From Sulfurospirillum deleyianum DSM 6946 (GTDB lineage: Bacteria; Campylobacterota; Campylobacteria; Campylobacterales; Sulfurospirillaceae): DNA of 64,000 nucleotides. The position numbers and the translations under genes were made by a program. Location of the stretch: assembly GCF_000024885.1 (NCBI RefSeq), contig NC_013512.1, forward strand, positions 1,984,001-2,048,000. Direction: 5' to 3'. Below the pieces are notes generated by a model that saw nothing but the letters and a program-made list of their open reading frames with translations, made no database searches and was not told where the DNA came from. Of this stretch, positions 38,783-49,240 are shown piece after piece (position 1 is the first letter of the stretch; each line of letters opens with the position of its first letter).

Positions 38783-40084
38783 TTATAAAATCATTCCACC
38801 AATCACAAATGCGAATGCGACAGAAAGAGAAATGGCAACAACACCAGGGATAAGGAATGGATGGTTAAATACAAATTTACCAATTCTTGTTGAGCCTGTA
38901 TCGTCCATCTCTACCGCTGCAATCAATGTTGGATACGTTGGAAGAACAAACAATGCGCTGACCGCTGCAAACGAAGCAACGATGGTTAAAGGTGAAACAC
39001 CGAGCAATAAAGCACTTGGCATCAACGCTTTAGCGGTTGCGGCTTGAGAGTAAAGAAGCATACTAGCAAAGAAAAGAACGACCGCTAACATCCATGGATA
39101 AACGTTAAGCAAGTCACCCGCAAACGCTTTGATTTCGCTAATGTGATTTGCGACAAAAGTATCACCTAACCACGCAACACCTAAAACACAGATACATGCA
39201 CTCATACCTGATTTAAAAGTACCAGAGTTAAGAATTTGCGCAGAATCAATTTTTGTAAAGAATGTGATAAACGTTGCACCTGTCAACATGAAAAGCATAA
39301 TCGCAGCATCACGACCAACCACAGGGTTTTTAATCAAACCTACTTTATCACTAATCATGGTTGCATAGATAACAACAGATAGAATAGTTAAAAGGAAAAT
39401 AAAAACAGAAAGTTTTGCACCAGGTTTTACTTCAAGTTGTGTAGTGCCTCTGGTTTTTACCAAACCTTTTGCCAATCTTTCTTGATAAATTTCATCATCT
39501 TTTAACTCTTTGCCCAAAAAGTTAGCAACAAACGCTGCACACATACATGCAAGAAAAGATGAAGGAATACATACCGCAAGTAAATCCAAATAACCCACAC
39601 CGTGTTTCTCTAAAGCACCACTTAAAAAGACAACCGCTGCTGAAATTGGAGAAGCAGTGATGGCGATTTGAGACGCAACAACCGCGATACTTAAAGGACG
39701 TGATGGACGAATACCTTGCTCTTTTGCTACTTCTGCAATAACAGGCAGGGTTGAAAACGCTGTATGACCTGTTCCAGCAAAAAATGTCATAACATAAGTA
39801 ACAACAGGGGCTAAAAACGTGATTTGTTTAGGATTTTTGCGAAGAATTTTCTCAGCAATACTGACCATATAATCAAGTCCACCTGCCACTTGCATTGCGG
39901 CAATCGCTGCGATAACAGACATAATAATCAAGATAACATCAATAGGAATCGAACCTAACTTTAAACCCATACCAAGTGCTAATACTAAAACACCTAGTCC
40001 TCCCGCATAACCGATAGCAATGCTACCGAGTCTTGCTCCAAAAAAGATGGCAGCAAGAACAACAATGACCTCTAACCATAACAT
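38783..40084 (-). CDS. dcuA: Anaerobic C4-dicarboxylate exchanger (Dcu family)
   Basis: A 433-residue membrane protein with about ten helices, matching DcuA/DcuB (MLWLEVIVVLAAIFFGARLG at the start, TFFAGTGHTAFSTLPVIAEVA and SQIAITASPISAAVV inside). These carriers swap aspartate or fumarate for succinate. Its position after the aspartase gene is typical of DcuA in relatives, which is why I use that symbol, but DcuB cannot be excluded. The 146-bp gap to the aspartase gene holds two hairpins. Confidence 0.88.
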   Translation of the reverse strand: MLWLEVIVVLAAIFFGARLGSIAIGYAGGLGVLVLALGMGLKLGSIPIDVILIIMSVIAAIAAMQVAGGLDYMVSIAEKILRKNPKQITFLAPVVTYVMTFFAGTGHTAFSTLPVIAEVAKEQGIRPSRPLSIAVVASQIAITASPISAAVVFLSGALEKHGVGYLDLLAVCIPSSFLACMCAAFVANFLGKELKDDEIYQERLAKGLVKTRGTTQLEVKPGAKLSVFIFLLTILSVVIYATMISDKVGLIKNPVVGRDAAIMLFMLTGATFITFFTKIDSAQILNSGTFKSGMSACICVLGVAWLGDTFVANHISEIKAFAGDLLNVYPWMLAVVLFFASMLLYSQAATAKALMPSALLLGVSPLTIVASFAAVSALFVLPTYPTLIAAVEMDDTGSTRIGKFVFNHPFLIPGVVAISLSVAFAFVIGGMIL

Positions 40085-40113
40085 GGTAACTCCTTATACT
40101 AAGTTTTAAACTC

Positions 40114-40208
40114 CTCTAATAGCTCCTTAAGCCATTAGAGCAATTATGGTGTGCCACAGAAGGGCGATAAAAGGAAGAGGTGTGAGAAAACCGCTTCTTC
40201 TGTGGCAC
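40114..40208 (-). promoter_or_regulatory. Two inverted repeats between aspA and dcu
   Basis: CTCTAAT/ATTAGAG (40114-40120 and 40134-40140) and a perfect 12-bp pair GTGCCACAGAAG/CTTCTGTGGCAC (40151-40162 and 40197-40208) lie in the gap after the first aspartase gene. The larger repeat has a 34-nt loop that can itself pair (GGAAG with CTTC). They could reduce read-through into dcu or stabilise the mRNA ends. The function is inferred from position. Confidence 0.55.
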
Positions 40209-40229
40209 GGAAAAAGGCTAAAAGGCTAC

Positions 40230-41636
40230 TTATTTTTTATCGTATGTACGTGGTTTAATCATATTTTCTGGTTTGATGATGTCATCAAGCTCATCTTTAG
40301 CCAAAAGACCACGAGCAAGAACGATGTCATACACAGAACCGCCTGTCTCTAACGCTTCTTTAGCTACTGAAGTTGAGTTCTCATAACCAATAAATGGATT
40401 AAGAGCGGTTACAAGTCCAATGCTATTAAGTACCATGGCTTTACAACGCTCAGGATTAGCCGTAATGCCATCCACACATGTGTACGCTAAGGTCTCAAAC
40501 GCATTTTTCATCATGTTGATAGAGCTAAAAAGGTTATAGGCAATGACGGGTTCAAATACGTTAAGTTGAAGCTGACCACCCTCGCACGCCAATGTCACAG
40601 CGATGTCTGTACCAATCACTTGGAAACATACTTGGTTCACAACCTCAGGGATAACAGGATTGACTTTACCTGGCATAATTGAACTACCTGGTTGCATTGC
40701 TGGAAGGTTGATTTCGCCTAAACCTGTTCTAGGACCTGAACTTAATAGACGAAGGTCGTTACAAATTTTTGACATTTTAGTAGCGACTCTTTTTAAAACA
40801 CCAGAGATTTGTACATAAGCACCTGTATCTTGTGTTGCTTCAACAAGATCACCTGCGGTGACAAACGGACGACCTGTGACTTCTTGTAGTTTTGCTTCAA
40901 CGGTTTTTGAGTAATTAGGATGTGCGTTGATACCTGTACCAATCGCTGTTGCACCTAGGTTCATCTCACGAACGAGCTGTTGCGCTTCAGTTACACGTTG
41001 GATATCCTCACCAATCATAACCGCATACGTACGAAACTCTTGCTCTAGGGTCATCGGAACCGCATCTTGAAGTTGTGTACGTCCCATTTTGATGATGTCT
41101 TTAAACTCAACCGCTTTGTTGGCAAATGAGCTTTTGATGATTTTCATAGACTCAGTTAGTTCACCTAATTTTTCATAAAGTGCTACACGAAGCGCTGTTG
41201 GGTAAGCATCGTTTGTTGATTGAGAAAGGTTAACATCGTTGTTTGGGTGTAAAAATTTGTATTCACCTTTTTGGTGACCCATTTTTTCCAAACCAATGTT
41301 TGCGATAACTTCGTTTGCGTTCATGTTAGTTGATGTACCTGCTCCACCTTGAAACATATCTACAACAAATTGGTCATGGTATTTGCCTGAAATGATTTCA
41401 TCACATGCTTCACAAATCACATTTTTTTTAGCTTCAGCAAGAAGACCTAAATCATAGTTTGCTAAAGCAGCTGCTTTTTTGACTTTTGCTAACGATACAA
41501 TAAATGTTGGGAAGCTTGAAAGTTTAATACCTGTAATATGAAAGTTCTCAGCCGCACGTGCAGTTTGAACGCCATAATAACACTCATTTGATATCTCTTT
41601 ATCACCGATTAAATCATGTTCCATTCTGGTTGACAT
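40230..41636 (-). CDS. aspA: Aspartate ammonia-lyase, copy 1
   Basis: A 468-residue aspartase that converts aspartate to fumarate and ammonia. The superfamily signature GSSIMPGKVNPVIPEV is present, as are NVNLSQSTND-like DVNLSQSTND and GGAGTSTNMNANEV. It is closely related to the next gene upstream (41807), with most differences conservative or silent. It is followed by the dcu gene. Together these make fumarate for respiration and exchange Asp for succinate. Confidence 0.95.
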   Translation of the reverse strand: MSTRMEHDLIGDKEISNECYYGVQTARAAENFHITGIKLSSFPTFIVSLAKVKKAAALANYDLGLLAEAKKNVICEACDEIISGKYHDQFVVDMFQGGAGTSTNMNANEVIANIGLEKMGHQKGEYKFLHPNNDVNLSQSTNDAYPTALRVALYEKLGELTESMKIIKSSFANKAVEFKDIIKMGRTQLQDAVPMTLEQEFRTYAVMIGEDIQRVTEAQQLVREMNLGATAIGTGINAHPNYSKTVEAKLQEVTGRPFVTAGDLVEATQDTGAYVQISGVLKRVATKMSKICNDLRLLSSGPRTGLGEINLPAMQPGSSIMPGKVNPVIPEVVNQVCFQVIGTDIAVTLACEGGQLQLNVFEPVIAYNLFSSINMMKNAFETLAYTCVDGITANPERCKAMVLNSIGLVTALNPFIGYENSTSVAKEALETGGSVYDIVLARGLLAKDELDDIIKPENMIKPRTYDKK

Positions 41637-41782
41637 TTTGTCTCCTTAAAAGTTAAACGTGGTGGAAGTTTAAACCTCTAAAGGGATTTGAAAATGACTT
41701 TTTGGAATTTTTTTTAAAAAAAGCTTGAAATAAGAGAATTAATTAAAATATATAAAATTTTAAGGAAAAATGTTTTACATGT

Positions 41783-41804
41783 AAAGAGGGAAGAGTCCCT
41801 CTTT
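41783..41804 (-). terminator. Terminator between the two aspartase genes
   Basis: AAAGAGGGA and TCCCTCTTT form a 9-bp stem with a 4-nt loop directly after the stop of aspartase copy 2 (41807) on the minus strand. A TTTACATGTAAA palindrome shares its AAA foot. It suggests that each aspartase gene has its own transcript. The rest of the 170-bp gap is AT-rich and likely holds the copy 1 promoter. Confidence 0.8.
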
Positions 41805-41806
41805 GC

Positions 41807-43237
41807 TTAGAGCTTTACAAATTTACTCTTTTCAGAAAGCCCAAAATTGCGTGGTTTTATCATGTTTTCGGGTTGAATAATATCATCGAGTTCGCCTTTT
41901 TCCAATAAGCCTTTTTCTAAGACAATATCATACACCGAGCGTCCACTCTCTAGCGCTTCTTTGGCTACTATCGTAGAGTTTTCATAGCCGATAAAAGGAT
42001 TAAGTGCGGTCACTAAGCCAATGCTGTTTAAAACCAGCGATTTACATCGCTCAGGATTGGCAGTAATGCCATCGACGCAACTGTACGCTAAGGTCTCAAA
42101 AGCATTTTTCATCATATTGATGGAGTTAAAAAGGTTGTAGGCAATGAGCGGTTCAAAGACATTAAGTTGAAGCTGTCCACCCTCGCACGCAAGGGTTACG
42201 GCAATGTCAGTTCCAATGACTTGAAAGCAAACTTGATTGACCACTTCAGGGATCACAGGATTGACTTTACCGGGCATAATGGAGCTTCCTGGTTGCATCG
42301 CAGGCAGATTAATCTCCCCAAAACCCGTTCTTGGGCCTGAGCTTAAAAGCCTTAAGTCGTTACAAATCTTTGACATTTTGGTTGCCACGCGTTTTAAAAC
42401 ACCTGAAATTTGTACATACGCACCCGTATCTTGGGTCGCTTCAATCAAATCACCCGCTGTGACAAAAGGACGACCGGTTACTTCTTGCAGTTTGGCTTCC
42501 ACCGTTTTGGCATAATTGGGATGTGCGTTAATGCCCGTACCAATGGCGGTTGCTCCCATGTTGATTTCTCGCACCAACTGCCTTGCCTCATGAACACGCT
42601 GAATGTCCTCACCAATCATCACGGCGTAGGTTCGAAACTCTTGCTCTAAGGTCATCGGAACCGCGTCTTGCAGTTGGGTTCTGCCCATTTTGATGATGTC
42701 TTTAAACTGGGCTGATTTATGAGCAAAAGAGCTTTGAATGATTTTCATCGACTCACCCAGTTCGCCTAGTTTTTCATACAAAGCGACACGAAGAGCGGTG
42801 GGATAAGCGTCATTGGTTGATTGGGAAAGATTGACATCGTTGTTGGGATGCAGGTATTTGTATTCACCTTTTTGGTGTCCCATCAGCTCCAATCCAATGT
42901 TGGCGATGACTTCATTGGCGTTCATGTTGGTCGAAGTTCCAGCCCCTCCTTGAATCATATCGACCACGAATTGGTCGTGGTATTTACCTGCAATCAGTTG
43001 GTCGCACGCCTCGACAATGGCGTTTTTCTTTGCTTCTGAAAGAAGCTCTAACTCGTAGTTTGCCAAAGCGGCGGCTTTTTTAACTTTAGCGATGGACTCG
43101 ATAAAAGTGGGAAATTTGGAGATGGTTACCCCTGTGATGTGAAAATTCTCTGCCGCACGTGCGGTTTGAACACCATAATAACACGCATTGGATATCTCTT
43201 TATCGCCGATTAAATCATGTTCGATTCGAGTTGACAC
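41807..43237 (-). CDS. aspA: Aspartate ammonia-lyase, copy 2
   Basis: A 476-residue aspartase nearly identical in layout to copy 1, with the same GSSIMPGKVNPV signature. It differs by scattered substitutions (for example the opening STRIEHDLIGDKEISNACYY against STRMEHDLIGDKEISNECYY) and by a longer C-terminus (NFGLSEKSKFVKL). Silent changes are many, so the duplication is not recent or the copies diverged under different codon pressure. A TATAAT-like -10 lies upstream at 43270-43275. Both copies keep the catalytic loop. Confidence 0.94.
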   Translation of the reverse strand: MSTRIEHDLIGDKEISNACYYGVQTARAAENFHITGVTISKFPTFIESIAKVKKAAALANYELELLSEAKKNAIVEACDQLIAGKYHDQFVVDMIQGGAGTSTNMNANEVIANIGLELMGHQKGEYKYLHPNNDVNLSQSTNDAYPTALRVALYEKLGELGESMKIIQSSFAHKSAQFKDIIKMGRTQLQDAVPMTLEQEFRTYAVMIGEDIQRVHEARQLVREINMGATAIGTGINAHPNYAKTVEAKLQEVTGRPFVTAGDLIEATQDTGAYVQISGVLKRVATKMSKICNDLRLLSSGPRTGFGEINLPAMQPGSSIMPGKVNPVIPEVVNQVCFQVIGTDIAVTLACEGGQLQLNVFEPLIAYNLFNSINMMKNAFETLAYSCVDGITANPERCKSLVLNSIGLVTALNPFIGYENSTIVAKEALESGRSVYDIVLEKGLLEKGELDDIIQPENMIKPRNFGLSEKSKFVKL

Positions 43238-43312: not shown

Positions 43313-43969
43313 TTATTTTTTGGCAATGCCCACTTTTTGGGGGCGAATACTTAAATCGGTAATGACCCCGTTTACATGTAATACATCCCACACGCTTTGA
43401 GCGATGGTTTCAGGGAGCAGATGGGTTGATTCATCCTCACTGGGTTTAAAATGAAGGGCGTCAAAAAAAGGCGTTTGGGTCATATCTGGGTTAATGGATG
43501 TGACTCTCACACCGCTTTTTCGTACCTCTTCAAAGAGACAATGCCCAAAGTCTCGAAGACCGCTTTTGGTGGCGGTGTAGAGTGCTGAGTATTTGGCGTG
43601 ACGAGTCGCTTCAATGGAAGTAATGTTGATGATATGACCGCTTTGTTTTTGTAAGGAGCGCAAACACAAAGAACTTAAAATAATAGGCGCAGTGAGGTTG
43701 ATATCAATAAGGTTTTTGATTTTGGAAGGGCTAATGGTCTCGTGCGGATCAAACACTCCCACACCCGCACAGTTAATAAGCACATCGACCTCATGACTTT
43801 TTAGCCACGCTTTGACTTTTTTTTCAAGCGCTTCAGTATCTCGCAAATCACACACAATCTCCGCTTCGTTTCGCCCGATATTAAAGACTTCATACTCGTT
43901 ACATGTAAGAATGTTTTTTATCGCCTTGCCAATGCCACTGCTTCCGCCACTCATTAAAACCGTTTTCAT
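43313..43969 (-). CDS. Short-chain dehydrogenase/reductase
   Basis: A 218-residue SDR oxidoreductase. The cofactor motif is MSGGSSGIGKAI, the structural NCAG follows, and the active-site YxxxK is in YTATKSG with the Ser in NITSIEA. The short Rossmann protein likely uses NADPH; the substrate is unknown. It lies 14 bp after the probable restriction gene on the same strand. Palindrome copies at 43372 and 43899 lie inside it. Confidence 0.88.
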   Translation of the reverse strand: MKTVLMSGGSSGIGKAIKNILTCNEYEVFNIGRNEAEIVCDLRDTEALEKKVKAWLKSHEVDVLINCAGVGVFDPHETISPSKIKNLIDINLTAPIILSSLCLRSLQKQSGHIINITSIEATRHAKYSALYTATKSGLRDFGHCLFEEVRKSGVRVTSINPDMTQTPFFDALHFKPSEDESTHLLPETIAQSVWDVLHVNGVITDLSIRPQKVGIAKK

Positions 43970-43983
43970 AAAAATTTTACCTT

Positions 43984-45036
43984 TTAATTCTTATCACAAA
44001 CGAATGGAATATTTTCACTCCATGGTAGCGTTGCGTATTGCCATTTTTTGTAGATTTTACCCTCAGGGTTACCGCAAAATTTTCCATGCGACCAGCGAAT
44101 CTCTACTTTTAAATCAAGCGTAAATGTCTCTAAGGTGTGCTTGTTTTTAAAGGAAAAAAGAAGCAGTACCTCAGGTTGCCCTTTATCAAGTTCAATAGCA
44201 TGAATGCCCATAAATTCATACGATTTATTCCATACGTCTGTGGGATTCATATACAAAGCAAAAGGCTTCTTTTTATCGGTTCCTGCGAGAATATAACGTA
44301 CACCATTGATTCTAAAAAAATAGTGAAAAATGGGTTGCAGGGCGTTGGATTTGTTTTTGTTTTTTTGCAAATAGTGTGTTAGATTTTCATTGAAAATGCG
44401 AGAAGACTCAACGCTCACTTTTTGGCATAAATGCTTGTATGTGTTTAGAACAGATTTATCTTTCTTTTTGTGTAAGAGCGTGACGTGGTCACTAAAAGCA
44501 TCTCTCTCTTTTCGTTTTGTTTGCTGGTAAAAATCTTCAACATGAGAAAATCCTGTTTGCGCTAAGCCACCACATGCTAAAAAATAGTCGTTAAACTCTT
44601 TGGGGGCAACATATAAAAACCAGTCCACGCCTCTGCTTGAGTGTGCAAACTCTCCAAAGGGCATGTGCTCAAATATTTTATCAGGGGAAGCGTTAATAAA
44701 TACATCAGCACTCTCTTTGATAGAGAGTCTAAGGTTAAGGTTTTGGATATAAATATCTTTAGCAACAGCGGACATGGCACTTGTCTTTTCGTTGCCTGTC
44801 CATTCAATTCGCAAAGCATGAACACCATCGCAGAGTAGATGTTTTCGAATAGATTTTCCAACATGCTCTAAATTTGTAATTTGAGTTTGACCTATTTTGG
44901 TAAGGCTTCGTTTTTCATACTCTTTAAGGTATTGCTCTTTTGCACTTGGAGTTACATTGATAATATCCTCTAACGAGCCTTCATTTAGGGCTAACGCTAC
45001 AGAAAGTTCTGAAAATATCGTTTGGTCTCTTGCCAT
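43984..45036 (-). CDS. Probable type II restriction endonuclease
   Basis: A 350-residue protein with no motif I can name, whose ATG overlaps the stop of the C5-cytosine methylase gene by one base (TAATG). Restriction enzymes are poorly conserved and are usually recognised by this position. Its C-terminal half has candidate nuclease acids and a lysine (LDLKVEIRW). Base composition and palindrome content do not mark it as very recent. The target site is unknown. It could be some other methylase-linked protein. Confidence 0.55.
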   Translation of the reverse strand: MARDQTIFSELSVALALNEGSLEDIINVTPSAKEQYLKEYEKRSLTKIGQTQITNLEHVGKSIRKHLLCDGVHALRIEWTGNEKTSAMSAVAKDIYIQNLNLRLSIKESADVFINASPDKIFEHMPFGEFAHSSRGVDWFLYVAPKEFNDYFLACGGLAQTGFSHVEDFYQQTKRKERDAFSDHVTLLHKKKDKSVLNTYKHLCQKVSVESSRIFNENLTHYLQKNKNKSNALQPIFHYFFRINGVRYILAGTDKKKPFALYMNPTDVWNKSYEFMGIHAIELDKGQPEVLLLFSFKNKHTLETFTLDLKVEIRWSHGKFCGNPEGKIYKKWQYATLPWSENIPFVCDKN

Positions 45037-46232
45037 TAGGCAACCTTTTTGGTGTTCTTTTTGGTCTCCATCTCATCGCACAATGCCAAAAATGCTTCTA
45101 ATTTTTTAGCGATGTGGTACGCTAAGAGTGGAGGAACAGCATTGCCGATAAGTTTATACGCCTCTGATGCCCCTAATTTTTCGCTCACAAAAGCGTAATC
45201 ATCGGGAAAAGTTTGCAGACGGGCACATTCACGCACCGATAAGCGACGCTCAGGCAGATGGTACTCTTCTTCTATGAGACCTCCATGCTCTTTTGAAAGT
45301 CGCCTGAACTCTATATTGCCATGATGTTCCGCACGAATGGTTGGGGCTAGTTTGTTGGGATTGATTTCGGTTTGCCCTTGGCAATGCTTACCAAACCATT
45401 TAGCTTTTGAGTATTTTTGATGGCTTAAATCCTCACTTTGCTCAGGTTCACACAAATCAAATAGGGCGTCTTTGACGGTTACAAAGTCATGTTTGATGTC
45501 GTGTGTTGGTTCAGGATAGAGACTGAATTCGCCATTTTGAAGCTTTACATGTAAATCTTCTGAGAGAATATCTTTACGCACACCTATAAAAATGATGCGC
45601 TCTCTTGTTTGCGGTACGCCATAGTTTCCCGCATGAAGTACGTTTGGGTCAAGAACAACGTAGCCTTCGCCGATAGTGCGAAAATCTTGCGTCATAATCT
45701 CTTTAACGTCTTTCATGCTGACTAAACCTTTAACGTTCTCAGCGATAAAAATCTTAGGTTTAATTAATGCGATGGCTTCTCTAAGCCAAAAGTAAAGCAT
45801 ACCACGCGATTCGATGGTAGGCGTGTCTATGGCGTTACGGTAAGCGTTTTTGTGTGTTTTGTGAGAGTCAAAACCCTTGCGTTTCCCCGCAACCGAAAAA
45901 TCTTGACACGGAAAACCTCCTGTCACCACATCTGCGTTAGGGAATGTAAACGTACCTTCTTTAGCCTTTTTTACCAGTTCAACAATGCTTTCAAGATGAA
46001 AAACATTATCCCTTTGAAAGTAATACTCCCACGCTTTTTTTGCAGAGGGTTTGATGTCGCAAGCAAAAACGGTTTGAAAGGCTGTTGGTGCAAGTTTAAC
46101 AAAATTTTTGTGACGTTCTTTTATCCATGTTTTGTCTTTAACACTCTTCGCTTTAACCCAAAAGTCACCCTCTAAGCCCAAATCAAGTCCACCACAACCT
46201 GAAAAAAATGAGACAACTTTTAGAGGTTTCAT
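45036..46232 (-). CDS. DNA (cytosine-5)-methyltransferase
   Basis: A 398-residue C5-methylase. Motifs in order: I (VSFFSGCGGLDLGLEG), IV with the catalytic Cys (GGFPCQDFSVAGKRKG), VI (FIAENVKGL), VIII (QTRERIIFIGVR), IX (RRLSVRECARLQTFPDDY) and X (KLIGNAVPPLLA). The open frame runs 87 codons upstream into the next gene's end, but MKPLKVVSFFSG at 46232 is the natural start. Target recognition lies between VIII and IX. It pairs with the probable restriction enzyme. TTACATGTAA at 45545 encodes LHVK. Confidence 0.95.
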   Translation of the reverse strand: MKPLKVVSFFSGCGGLDLGLEGDFWVKAKSVKDKTWIKERHKNFVKLAPTAFQTVFACDIKPSAKKAWEYYFQRDNVFHLESIVELVKKAKEGTFTFPNADVVTGGFPCQDFSVAGKRKGFDSHKTHKNAYRNAIDTPTIESRGMLYFWLREAIALIKPKIFIAENVKGLVSMKDVKEIMTQDFRTIGEGYVVLDPNVLHAGNYGVPQTRERIIFIGVRKDILSEDLHVKLQNGEFSLYPEPTHDIKHDFVTVKDALFDLCEPEQSEDLSHQKYSKAKWFGKHCQGQTEINPNKLAPTIRAEHHGNIEFRRLSKEHGGLIEEEYHLPERRLSVRECARLQTFPDDYAFVSEKLGASEAYKLIGNAVPPLLAYHIAKKLEAFLALCDEMETKKNTKKVA

Positions 46233-46266
46233 GTGGATATTCCTTTGTATTTTAATGCTAATAGTA

Positions 46267-47511
46267 TCATTTTCTGATTTTAACTCTAATTTTTTGCATA
46301 TATGCCTTTGCCATCGCTTCTTCAAAGGCTTCGTTGTTGGCGTACTCATGCCCAAAGACTTTTTGCCATAAACTCTCATCTTCCATGCAAAGATAGAAAA
46401 AAACCTCGGTGTGCCACGGTGCAAAAGCCTTGTAAAGTGTGCTAAACATCTCCTCTTTAAAGCTGAGGGGATAGGAGTATTTGCCACTCGCATCCACTAA
46501 AGGCATTTGCAAAATTTTACTGCTTTGCGCACGCAGTCGTATCTTTTTCAACACAGGCTTAATGAAGGTCAGCGTGCCCATGGAGATAAGCGCAACCTCT
46601 TTACATGTAAAGCGCTCAAGTAGCTCTTTAACAATGGCGGTGTACGCCTCTTTCCACCCTTCAAATAAGACGATGGGATGAAAATGAAAGCCTACCAATA
46701 CGCCTTTATCCGCCAGCGCTCTAGCACTTTGGATACGCTCTGTTAGGCTTGAAGAGCGTTTTTCCTCGTTGTCGATGATAACCTGAGGGTTAAGCGACCA
46801 CGTACAAAGAACATTTTTAGGCACTTCATGTTCTAAGAGATAGCTAATGTTGTCCGACTTGCTTTTAAACTCCAAAATGACATTGGGATGTTTTCGTGCA
46901 AAGCTAAAAAGCGCTTCTAAAACGCCCACACGATTCCCCCACATTAAAGAATCCGATGACTGTCCCGTGCCAATGTGGTAGGTTTTAGTAGGGTCAAGCT
47001 CCAAACGCTCCAACTTTTGGGCAAAGTTTTTATCAAATGTGATGGTGTTGTTTTTGTAAAAACTCTGAATGGAACAGTACGAACAGTCAAACCCACAACT
47101 CTCCACAGCATCCAAAGTCATCAGGTTGCAACAGCGTGTTTTAGGCGATGCCACGGGACAAGAGCCAAGCCCTAGATGCTCCTTTTCCACCTCTTCGATG
47201 TTAAAACGCTCCTTTTTAAAATCGTTGGGCGTTTTGGGGTAGGTTTTGAGGGTGTTTTTTAAGCGCTCATAGGCTTGTTGCAAGGCTAAAAACGCCTCTT
47301 TTTTGCTCTCTTTATCCACCCAAAAGGCTTCTATATTCTCATCCCACATCTGCATATCAACCGCCATGATGATGAACTGCTGAATTTGCGAAAAGCTCAA
47401 ATGATACGCTAAGGCTTTGGTTTTTACAAAGCTTTGTGTATTTACATGTAAACTTTGAAAGGGGGTGTTTTCGCACGCTTTTTCAAAGTGTTCAAGGTTC
47501 GTATCTAACAT
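46267..47511 (-). CDS. Spore-photoproduct-lyase-like radical SAM protein
   Basis: A 414-residue radical SAM protein with the cluster motif CGFDCSYC and flanking TLDAVESCG, IGTGQSSDSL and ILEFKSKSDNISYLL, as in the spore photoproduct lyase (SPL) family. SPL repairs UV thymine dimers in spores, but this organism group does not sporulate, so its substrate is open; DNA or nucleotide repair is a guess. The ATG at 47511 has GGGAGAAAT ahead and lies 20 bp inside the upstream gene. It is followed by the methylase gene after 34 bp. Confidence 0.82.
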   Translation of the reverse strand: MLDTNLEHFEKACENTPFQSLHVNTQSFVKTKALAYHLSFSQIQQFIIMAVDMQMWDENIEAFWVDKESKKEAFLALQQAYERLKNTLKTYPKTPNDFKKERFNIEEVEKEHLGLGSCPVASPKTRCCNLMTLDAVESCGFDCSYCSIQSFYKNNTITFDKNFAQKLERLELDPTKTYHIGTGQSSDSLMWGNRVGVLEALFSFARKHPNVILEFKSKSDNISYLLEHEVPKNVLCTWSLNPQVIIDNEEKRSSSLTERIQSARALADKGVLVGFHFHPIVLFEGWKEAYTAIVKELLERFTCKEVALISMGTLTFIKPVLKKIRLRAQSSKILQMPLVDASGKYSYPLSFKEEMFSTLYKAFAPWHTEVFFYLCMEDESLWQKVFGHEYANNEAFEEAMAKAYMQKIRVKIRK

Positions 47512-48028
47512 ATTTCTCCCATAATTTAATGCTTTTAGTGACCCAATTTCCCACGTCTGTTTTGCTAGGAATTGTATCTTCCAAATGGTCTGAGACCACT
47601 TTAAACACATAGGTTTTGATAGGGTTTGGAAGGGTTTGGATGAAAATGTCCGCTTCCATATCCACCAAAGTCGTCTTTACATGTAAGGCATCTTCGAGCG
47701 CCTTTGGGTGTGAAGAACAGCTCGCAAAAGGCATACCCAAACCCTCCTGTGTGGTGCAAAAAAGTGTGCCTTTAGCAATGCTTCTATCGACACACCCCGC
47801 AATGCCAATATTTATCGCAACGTGCGGTTCATAGAGACTCAGCGCATACAAAAGCGCCTCTTTGGAATTTTGGCTTCCCATGCCTGAGACGATGAGAGCG
47901 ATGTGTTCGTTTTCGTAAAGATTGAACGGTTGCTTTGCTGTACATCTCAGTTTAAAATGCCCAATAATCGGCTTTGCTTCCGCCACTAGTGCGGTGTGAA
48001 TGAGGGTGTGAATGTTTCTAGTAGACAT
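47492..48028 (-). CDS. Nucleoside phosphorylase/nucleosidase-like protein
   Basis: A 178-residue protein that resembles a shortened nucleosidase of the MTA/SAH type: HTALVAEAKPII at the start, LIVSGMGSQNSKEAL, AINIGIAGCVDRS, and LVDMEADIF in place of the usual substrate-binding VEMEGAA. It overlaps the RelE toxin gene upstream by 11 bp and the radical SAM gene downstream by 20 bp. Shared expression with an SPL-like enzyme hints at removal of a base or salvage of SAM products. Activity is unproven. ATG 48034 is an alternative start. Confidence 0.65.
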   Translation of the reverse strand: MSTRNIHTLIHTALVAEAKPIIGHFKLRCTAKQPFNLYENEHIALIVSGMGSQNSKEALLYALSLYEPHVAINIGIAGCVDRSIAKGTLFCTTQEGLGMPFASCSSHPKALEDALHVKTTLVDMEADIFIQTLPNPIKTYVFKVVSDHLEDTIPSKTDVGNWVTKSIKLWEKYVRYEP

Positions 48029-48293
48029 CGTCATGCGCACCGATGTCAAGTAAAATAATTTCATTTTCAACAATGATAAAATCTAAAATAATGCGGTACT
48101 GTAAGTCCAAAGAGACGGAATAAAATGCTTTAAGATTGCCTTGTAGTTTATGCAAACGCAAAAAGGGATGGTGTGGATTGGCACTTAAAAGTGTCAGCGT
48201 TTTTTCGTATTTGCTGTGCATTTCGGGGTGTTTTTTGAAAAATTTGAGCGATTTTTTAAAATATTCGTCCGTTCGGGTAATGTTATAAGGCAT
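48018..48293 (-). CDS. RelE/ParE-family toxin
   Basis: A 91-residue toxin-like protein: a helical N-terminus with FFKKHPEMHSKYEK, then LHKLQGNLKAFYSVSLDLQYRIILDF and a terminal LLDIGAHDDVY, which is the common RelE/YafQ pattern. Such toxins usually cut mRNA on the ribosome. It overlaps the antitoxin gene by 11 bp. A downstream overlap ties it to the nucleosidase-like gene, so toxin expression may be linked with the rest of the block. Confidence 0.85.
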   Translation of the reverse strand: MPYNITRTDEYFKKSLKFFKKHPEMHSKYEKTLTLLSANPHHPFLRLHKLQGNLKAFYSVSLDLQYRIILDFIIVENEIILLDIGAHDDVY

Positions 48294-48537
48294 TGCGTAG
48301 CTCGCTTAGATGCTCTTCCACGCTTTGTGTTTTATAACGCCCTTCCTTAATCTCTTGCATCGTCTCTTCATAAAGTCGGTCAAGTTCTAACGTACGCAAA
48401 TTTTTGTACCGCTCAATGTCAATCACAACGTATTTGTTTTTTCCACGCACGTTAATGATGACTTCACTGGCTTTTTCAAAGAGTTTATCAAGGAGTGTGA
48501 CCCCTTTGGTTTTAATGTCGTTGGCTGAAACTATCAT
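48283..48537 (-). CDS. Phd/YefM-type antitoxin
   Basis: An 84-residue antitoxin. The N-terminal part (IVSANDIKTKGVTLLDKL, then VIINVRGKNKYVVIDIERYKNL) is a Phd/YefM DNA-binding fold; the C-terminal acidic helix would wrap the toxin. It precedes the RelE-like gene with an 11-bp overlap. Just upstream are a TATAAT on the minus strand and nested palindromes that form a fitting autoregulatory operator. Confidence 0.88.
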   Translation of the reverse strand: MIVSANDIKTKGVTLLDKLFEKASEVIINVRGKNKYVVIDIERYKNLRTLELDRLYEETMQEIKEGRYKTQSVEEHLSELRNAL

Positions 48538-48623: not shown

Positions 48624-49079
48624 TTAATCCCATCCGCTATTGTATTCTGTTTCTAATATTGTTTCAATATAATTTTTATCTCTAAAATAAACTCTACAAG
48701 ATAAACATCTCCATTCTCCATTCTTCTCATCTTGTAGGCGAATAAGTTTTTTTTCTTTATCGTAGCAGAGCTGGCAAAAAGGACCATCTTTTGTTCCATC
48801 ATCTTTGTTTGCCCAATAATAAGGCATTTCAAATTGAAGTTTCGTTTTTATTTCTAATGCGTTTTTAAGTTCTTGCTTTTCTTGCTCACTTTCAAGAAGG
48901 GCTTCTTTAATATCTGCCATTTTAGTTTTTATATCAGCAAGCGATTCAATCAAGTATGCAAGTTTTAATTTGACTTCTGCTTTTTCGAGAGAATCACTAC
49001 TATCTTTCAAAAATTTTGCAATTTCCATTGCCCCTTTGACGCTACTTGCAGCAGTAGAAATAATTGCCATATCAAACAT
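48624..49079 (-). CDS. Coiled-coil protein with C-terminal zinc knuckles, unknown function
   Basis: A 151-residue protein. The N-terminus (ISTAASSVKGAMEIAKFL) and the next 60 residues are helical and heptad-like. The C-terminal third has CQLC and CLSC pairs about 23 residues apart, likely binding zinc. Proteins of this shape are often found in phage-like or defence regions, but I do not recognise the family. The ATG at 49079 has AAAGGAGC ahead; the earlier ATG at 49097 lies within that site. It is preceded by a 48-residue gene. Confidence 0.6.
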   Translation of the reverse strand: MFDMAIISTAASSVKGAMEIAKFLKDSSDSLEKAEVKLKLAYLIESLADIKTKMADIKEALLESEQEKQELKNALEIKTKLQFEMPYYWANKDDGTKDGPFCQLCYDKEKKLIRLQDEKNGEWRCLSCRVYFRDKNYIETILETEYNSGWD

Positions 49080-49093
49080 AAAAAACGCTCCTT

Positions 49094-49240
49094 TCAAGCC
49101 GATATTTTGACATGATACTTTGCCATAAGCGCTTTAGCTTTTTCTTGCAGAGGTTTTGGGGCTGGCCGGTAGCCTTCTATTTTTTGGGAAATTGCAACGA
49201 CTTTTCTGATGCTCTCTTTTGAAATTTCACGCTTTTTCAT
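49094..49240 (-). CDS. Small 48-residue basic protein, unknown
   Basis: A short open frame from ATG 49238-49240 to TGA 49094-49096 reads MKKREISKESIRKVVAISQK and continues IEGYRPAPKPLQEKAKALMA, ending KISA. It is Lys-rich and likely helical, with a Pro-rich hinge (RPAPKP). The stop lies just ahead of the zinc-knuckle gene and overlaps its alternative ATG. An antitoxin- or regulator-like role is possible. No database check was possible. Confidence 0.5.
   Translation of the reverse strand: MKKREISKESIRKVVAISQKIEGYRPAPKPLQEKAKALMAKYHVKISA

Follow-up and report, generated by a model that had tools for sequence, protein, structure and literature searches.

What does a radical S-adenosylmethionine (SAM) protein related to spore photoproduct lyase (SPL) do in Sulfurospirillum deleyianum DSM 6946, which belongs to a Campylobacterota lineage not known to form spores? 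The gene for this SPL-like protein is located in a 64,000-nucleotide stretch (NC_013512.1, positions 1,984,001 to 2,048,000; hereafter the window, in which all coordinates below are counted) of a genome that consists of a single contig of 2,306,351 bp. It is the fourth in a chain of six genes, all on the - strand, encoding an antitoxin, a toxin, a nucleosidase-like protein (nuc), the SPL-like protein, a DNA methyltransferase (MTase) and a putative restriction enzyme (REase). The original prediction, made from the sequence of the window, was that the chain could be a combined repair and defence unit. Comparison of loci points to another composition: as judged from gene neighbourhoods and co-occurrence, the functional unit is nuc, SPL and a seventh co-directional gene encoding a short-chain dehydrogenase (SDR), and the nucleosidase, the radical SAM enzyme and the reductase probably work as one enzyme system.

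A nucleosidase gene accompanies SPL across Campylobacterota

We examined co-occurrence in two partly overlapping samples: 100 relatives, in which nuc was counted at ≥50 bits, and 200 Campylobacterota genomes with completeness ≥90%, in which SPL was counted above the Pfam cut-off (PF20903, 27 bits), nuc at E ≤ 1×10−12 and the SDR subfamily at >200 bits. Several genomes are fragmented assemblies, and a stop codon is listed within, or at the end of, some of the matches to SPL and nuc. Among the 100 relatives, SPL is present in 52, all of which (52 of 52) also carry nuc, and nuc is found in 2 of the 48 relatives without SPL (G047 and G072, both fragmented assemblies). SPL is present in 36 of the 200 genomes, and nuc occurs in exactly those 36 and in none of the other 164 (P = 1.6×10−40, Fisher's exact test, without correction for phylogeny); two more of the 200 have SPL matches under the cut-off and no nuc. 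The SDR subfamily is found in 28 of the 36 genomes with SPL versus 1 of the 164 others. Since the presence of these genes is patchy within families and genera, including the window's own genus, common descent by itself is not an easy explanation of the co-occurrence. SDR is kept in one genome (G228) that has no SPL or nuc match, although all three genes occur in G187, from the same genus; this may reflect a recent loss.

The linkage is also evident from gene order. Nuc and SPL overlap or are adjacent, with SDR next to them, in most genomes of the Sulfurospirillum type and also in other families. The order varies among relatives and can be nuc-SPL-SDR, nuc-SDR-SPL, or nuc-SDR with SPL elsewhere in the genome; in one family (L092, L093, L094 and L100), a GAPDH-like gene comes after nuc and SDR, and SPL lies elsewhere. 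The predicted association of the nucleosidase-like gene with the SPL-like gene is thus borne out, with no exception in 200 genomes and with overlapping or adjoining genes in many families.

The restriction-modification pair splits the SPL-SDR junction

In close relatives, the stop codon of SPL and the start codon of SDR overlap as ATGA. In the window, about 2.3 kb containing the MTase and REase genes separate SPL from SDR, and the final SPL codons are altered. From this junction comparison, the restriction-modification pair is a later insertion between SPL and SDR. None of the other loci examined that carry nuc and SPL contains the MTase or REase genes, and a full-length match to the REase occurs in just one more of the 100 relatives, at a different place. 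A homologous MTase-REase pair is found in an unrelated setting in G077 (L125:1489-3722, - strand; REase 49% identical), which suggests a mobile restriction-modification unit. Within this putative type II pairing, the MTase assignment is certain, and the REase is assigned by a weak PADLOC match together with the conserved pairing in G077. Of the Sulfurospirillum-type loci, only some carry the toxin-antitoxin pair. Both sets of genes, restriction and toxin, look like unrelated later arrivals.

These results bear on whether all six genes could form a combined repair and defence unit. The compact, co-directional arrangement speaks for it, and every overlap and gap of the original prediction is exact: the antitoxin and toxin genes overlap by 11 bp, as do the toxin gene and nuc (nuc ATG at 48028), nuc (end at 47492) and SPL (start at 47511) overlap by 20 bp, a gap of 34 bp lies between SPL (end at 46267) and MTase (start at 46232), and MTase and REase have 1 bp, at 45036, in common. 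Its gene assignments were also upheld by family scans, with weak matches for the toxin and the REase. However, the restriction-modification pair is limited at this place to one genome, in which it splits the SPL-SDR overlap of the relatives, and recurs in an unrelated setting; the toxin-antitoxin pair is variable; and nuc, SPL and SDR are without a PADLOC match, with no evidence tying the three-gene unit to phage defence. We therefore consider the six-gene unit extremely improbable, and a defence unit that includes the restriction and toxin genes is rejected on the comparison of loci. Of the predicted chain, nuc and SPL lie inside the unit, whereas the MTase, REase, toxin and antitoxin genes fall outside it; SDR, which begins 14 bp after REase and beyond the predicted chain, had been overlooked. 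Repair by the SPL-like protein itself is possible and is considered next.

The SPL-like protein lacks the canonical donor and relay residues

The SPL-like protein has an SPL-family radical SAM core with a CxxxCxxC motif (PF20903, cut-off 27 bits), and falls far short of the photo_TT_lyase equivalog (TIGR04070, 61.5 bits versus a cut-off of 400). Its structure model (pLDDT, a per-residue confidence score, 88.8) has Geobacillus SPL as the best match. With the Geobacillus SplB structures (4fhc and 4rh0), it shares the radical SAM fold, CxxxCxxC, the Tyr of CxYC and the conserved Ser-Asp after the donor position, at 18-19% identity in the structural match. It differs from SplB in an extra N-terminal module, a CPVAS..CCN motif, an apparently obligate nucleosidase partner, and the replacement of the donor Cys and, in the long type, the relay Tyr. 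In SPL, C141 gives a hydrogen to the thymine radical and a Y99/Y97 relay restores SAM (B. subtilis numbering; PMC5368176). At the donor position (C140 in Geobacillus), all Campylobacterota members inspected of the long type (≥386 aa), to which the S. deleyianum protein belongs, have Gln, and the short type (303-350 aa) has Tyr. At the position of relay residue Y99 (Y98 in Geobacillus), the Campylobacterota long type has Ser or Ala, with Ser in S. deleyianum. As both the donor Cys and the relay Tyr are replaced, canonical spore-photoproduct chemistry is unlikely.

Nucleic-acid repair could still be achieved if the SPL-like protein reversed a UV-induced or other lesion via an alternative Cys or Tyr donor, with nuc and SDR processing by-products derived from the lesion or from SAM. 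The SPL fold and family match are consistent with such repair, which is also what the Nautilia genome paper proposes (PMC2628731). In long-type proteins, the cluster motif is preceded by invariant cysteines that could replace the missing donor, as C74 is an alternative Cys donor in C. acetobutylicum SPL (PMC5368176). DNA repair has to be considered also because SplB-type COG1533 genes are reported to be SOS-regulated in several species of other phyla (PMC8565304). However, besides the absence of the canonical donor and relay, in several members of the short type the sequence ahead of the cluster motif contains no cysteine at all, and an MTAN-type nucleosidase is not an expected partner for a repair enzyme that restores SAM. 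Photolyase, moreover, is retained in this genome and in 22 of 23 same-genus relatives, irrespective of SPL. Taken together, repair appears rather unlikely. The idea that SPL is a photolyase replacement is not supported, as photolyase presence does not track SPL.

Nuc is a compact second nucleosidase

The predicted structure of nuc (AlphaFold, pLDDT 93.6) has matches to MTAN and to futalosine hydrolase. When aligned with the canonical MTANs of these genomes, nuc retains the catalytic Glu, the Met-Glu pair and the catalytic Asp, which we take to have the known roles of these residues in MTAN. Nuc is thus like MTAN (Pfs) and futalosine hydrolase in fold and catalytic residues, but is about 50 residues shorter, lacks a central MTAN stretch that includes ATGDQF, and is additional to the canonical MTAN. 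Because this central stretch is missing, the base or 5′ specificity has probably changed. Scores against curated families stay under their cut-offs: the best NCBIfam match is futalosine hydrolase (TIGR03664, 30.9 versus 124.7 bits), TIGR01704 gives 12.5 versus 73.8 bits, and HpnG is lower in the list and also far under its cut-off. A separate canonical MTAN was found in all of the 16 genomes tested, which suggests that nuc is a second, specialised enzyme and makes a role in general recycling of S-adenosylhomocysteine or methylthioadenosine unlikely.

A probable shared helical module on one partner or the other

The two SPL types differ in where an additional segment is located. In the pairs examined, long SPLs carry, at the N-terminus, a helical module of about 90 residues and are partnered by a short nuc (typically 165-200 aa), whereas short SPLs are without the module and are partnered by a long nuc (about 235-271 aa where complete) with a C-terminal extension. 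In the S. deleyianum SPL model, helices span residues 4-86. When profiles of the nuc extension and the SPL module were compared, the match had a probability of 65% with 9 sequences and of 88% (E = 3.3×10−6) with 14 sequences. Over the matched columns, the real score is 26.7 and the best of 300 column shuffles is 17.7; an earlier shuffle test had one unexplained outlier of 300 above the real score, and none was seen when the test was run again on more sequences and without gap-rich columns. These results suggest that the SPL N-terminal module and the nuc C-terminal extension are likely to be homologous. Since nuc is often directly upstream of SPL, the module lies where the two genes meet and may have passed from one to the other. 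We infer that nuc and SPL form a physical complex, held together by the helical module on one or the other.

A possible adenosylation-deadenylation system

Radical SAM enzymes that work with a nucleosidase have precedents. In the futalosine pathway of menaquinone synthesis, MqnE makes a 5′-deoxyadenosyl adduct that is then deadenylated by MqnB or MTAN. Similarly, in the synthesis of the hopanoid side chain, the adduct is made by HpnH and deadenylated by HpnG (PMC12583986). Both cases have a radical SAM enzyme followed by a nucleosidase of the PNP superfamily, as proposed here, and the later reduction of the ribosyl intermediate in the hopanoid case can be likened to an SDR step. They differ from the present system in that the radical SAM enzyme here is of the SPL family and that adduct formation here is a prediction from the genes. 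The hopanoid pathway itself was rejected, as squalene-hopene cyclase (PF13249) is absent from all 16 genomes tested.

With the relay lost, the nucleosidase constant and the SDR present, the same logic fits the nuc-SPL-SDR unit. The SPL-like enzyme would cleave SAM, and the 5′-deoxyadenosyl radical would act on a substrate. Because the residues that restore SAM are missing, an adenosyl product may be left, either a substrate-5′-deoxyadenosyl adduct, as with MqnE and HpnH, or free 5′-deoxyadenosine. The dedicated MTAN-fold nuc would then hydrolyse the adenine off, and SDR would reduce the exposed sugar aldehyde or the substrate, with the helical module keeping nuc and the radical SAM enzyme together. 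Adduct formation and deadenylation are suggested by the partner enzymes. We put this scheme, an adenosyl product left by the SPL-like enzyme, cleaved by the dedicated nucleosidase and reduced by SDR, forward tentatively, at a little under an even chance. Rather more doubtful is that it amounts to a further natural adenosylation-deadenylation pathway across Campylobacterota, in which an SPL-family enzyme complexed with a compact nuc, and then SDR, would make a metabolite or a modified nucleoside.

If the product is free 5′-deoxyadenosine, nuc could serve only to destroy this inhibitory by-product of the SPL-like enzyme, and SDR could reduce 5-deoxyribose or the SPL product. 5′-Deoxyadenosine inhibits radical SAM enzymes and is cleared by nucleosidases (PMC6079011). 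The inferred nuc-SPL complex would also fit channelling. However, the ordinary MTAN is available in every genome tested and nuc lacks the central MTAN segment. These genomes presumably have other radical SAM enzymes without a dedicated nucleosidase partner, which also argues against such private removal. We regard it as unlikely.

Several observations weigh against the adenosyl-product scheme, including the upstream cysteines of the long type and the SOS regulation of SplB-type genes mentioned above. The adenine specificity of nuc is not certain, given the absent central stretch; the evidence for homology of the helical module is moderate and not conclusive; and SDR is below the threshold used in 8 of the 36 genomes with SPL. 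Furthermore, the pairing is weaker outside Campylobacterota: of 144 Bdellovibrionia genomes, at least 7 have a long-type SPL, and 4 of these 7 are without a clear nuc and 3 have a moderate, unlinked nuc-like match. About 70 of the 144 Bdellovibrionia genomes have a further SPL class (L135-L138); the members inspected show the motif CPG..CCN..CxxxCSYCYLQS, and nuc does not adjoin this SPL.

Features of the window

The coordinates are collected in Table 1. A promoter scan was uninformative (9 promoter-like matches versus a shuffle mean of 14.0), and so was a terminator scan (8 terminator-like matches versus 6.1 in shuffles).

Table 1. Genes and segments of the nuc-SPL-SDR locus and its neighbours in the window
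Feature	Position	Strand	Basis
nuc, compact MTAN-fold nucleosidase, 178 aa	47492..48028	-	PF01048 (PNP_UDP_1), 28.4 bits; structure model; Glu, Met-Glu, Ser-Asp motifs
SPL-like radical SAM protein, 414 aa, N-terminal helical module and CxxxCxxC motif	46267..47511	-	PF20903, 54.7 bits
SDR, short-chain dehydrogenase, third member of the conserved unit	43313..43969	-	PF00106, 111.6 bits
Region encoding the SPL N-terminal helical module (about residues 1-90)	47240..47511	-	Profile match to nuc C-terminal extension
Inserted segment at the SPL-SDR junction, about 2.3 kb, boundaries approximate	43985..46289	-	Junction comparison with relatives
C5-cytosine DNA methyltransferase, in insertion, outside the unit	45036..46232	-	PF00145, 194.4 bits
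Putative type II restriction enzyme, in insertion, outside the unit	43984..45036	-	PADLOC REase_II, weak, 17.9 bits
YafQ/RelE-like toxin, variable neighbour	48018..48293	-	PF15738, 27.2 bits, just under cut-off of 30
Phd-like antitoxin, variable neighbour	48283..48537	-	TIGR01552, 23.4 bits, cut-off 20.8

Upstream of the toxin-antitoxin pair is a gene (48624-49097, - strand) with four CxxC-type cysteines near its C-terminus, and its counterpart also adjoins a toxin-antitoxin pair in L003/L031. On the other side of the locus (38783-43237, - strand), two tandem and closely similar open reading frames (40230-41636 and 41807-43237) look like aspartate ammonia-lyase, and the one beside them (38783-40084) resembles an anaerobic C4-dicarboxylate transporter, all by sequence appearance.

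Significance

An SPL-related gene with a proposed role in DNA repair has been reported in Nautilia profundicola (GAmH_0507; PMC2628731). In common with the loci described here, this homologue lies beside a short-chain dehydrogenase gene and has a toxin-antitoxin pair, of RelBE type, nearby. For SPL in Sulfurospirillum, this genome paper is the only literature found, and neither it nor the other open-licence papers searched were found to describe the nucleosidase partner, the phylum-wide pairing or the module. In bacteria for which sporulation is not known, SPL-like proteins are often labelled as DNA repair photolyases without a tested function. The apparently obligate nucleosidase, the frequent reductase and the probable shared module turn such an entry into a defined three-enzyme system that is directly assayable. 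If the SPL-like enzyme does leave an adenosyl product, the SPL fold would have been co-opted for a chemistry that is not lesion reversal.

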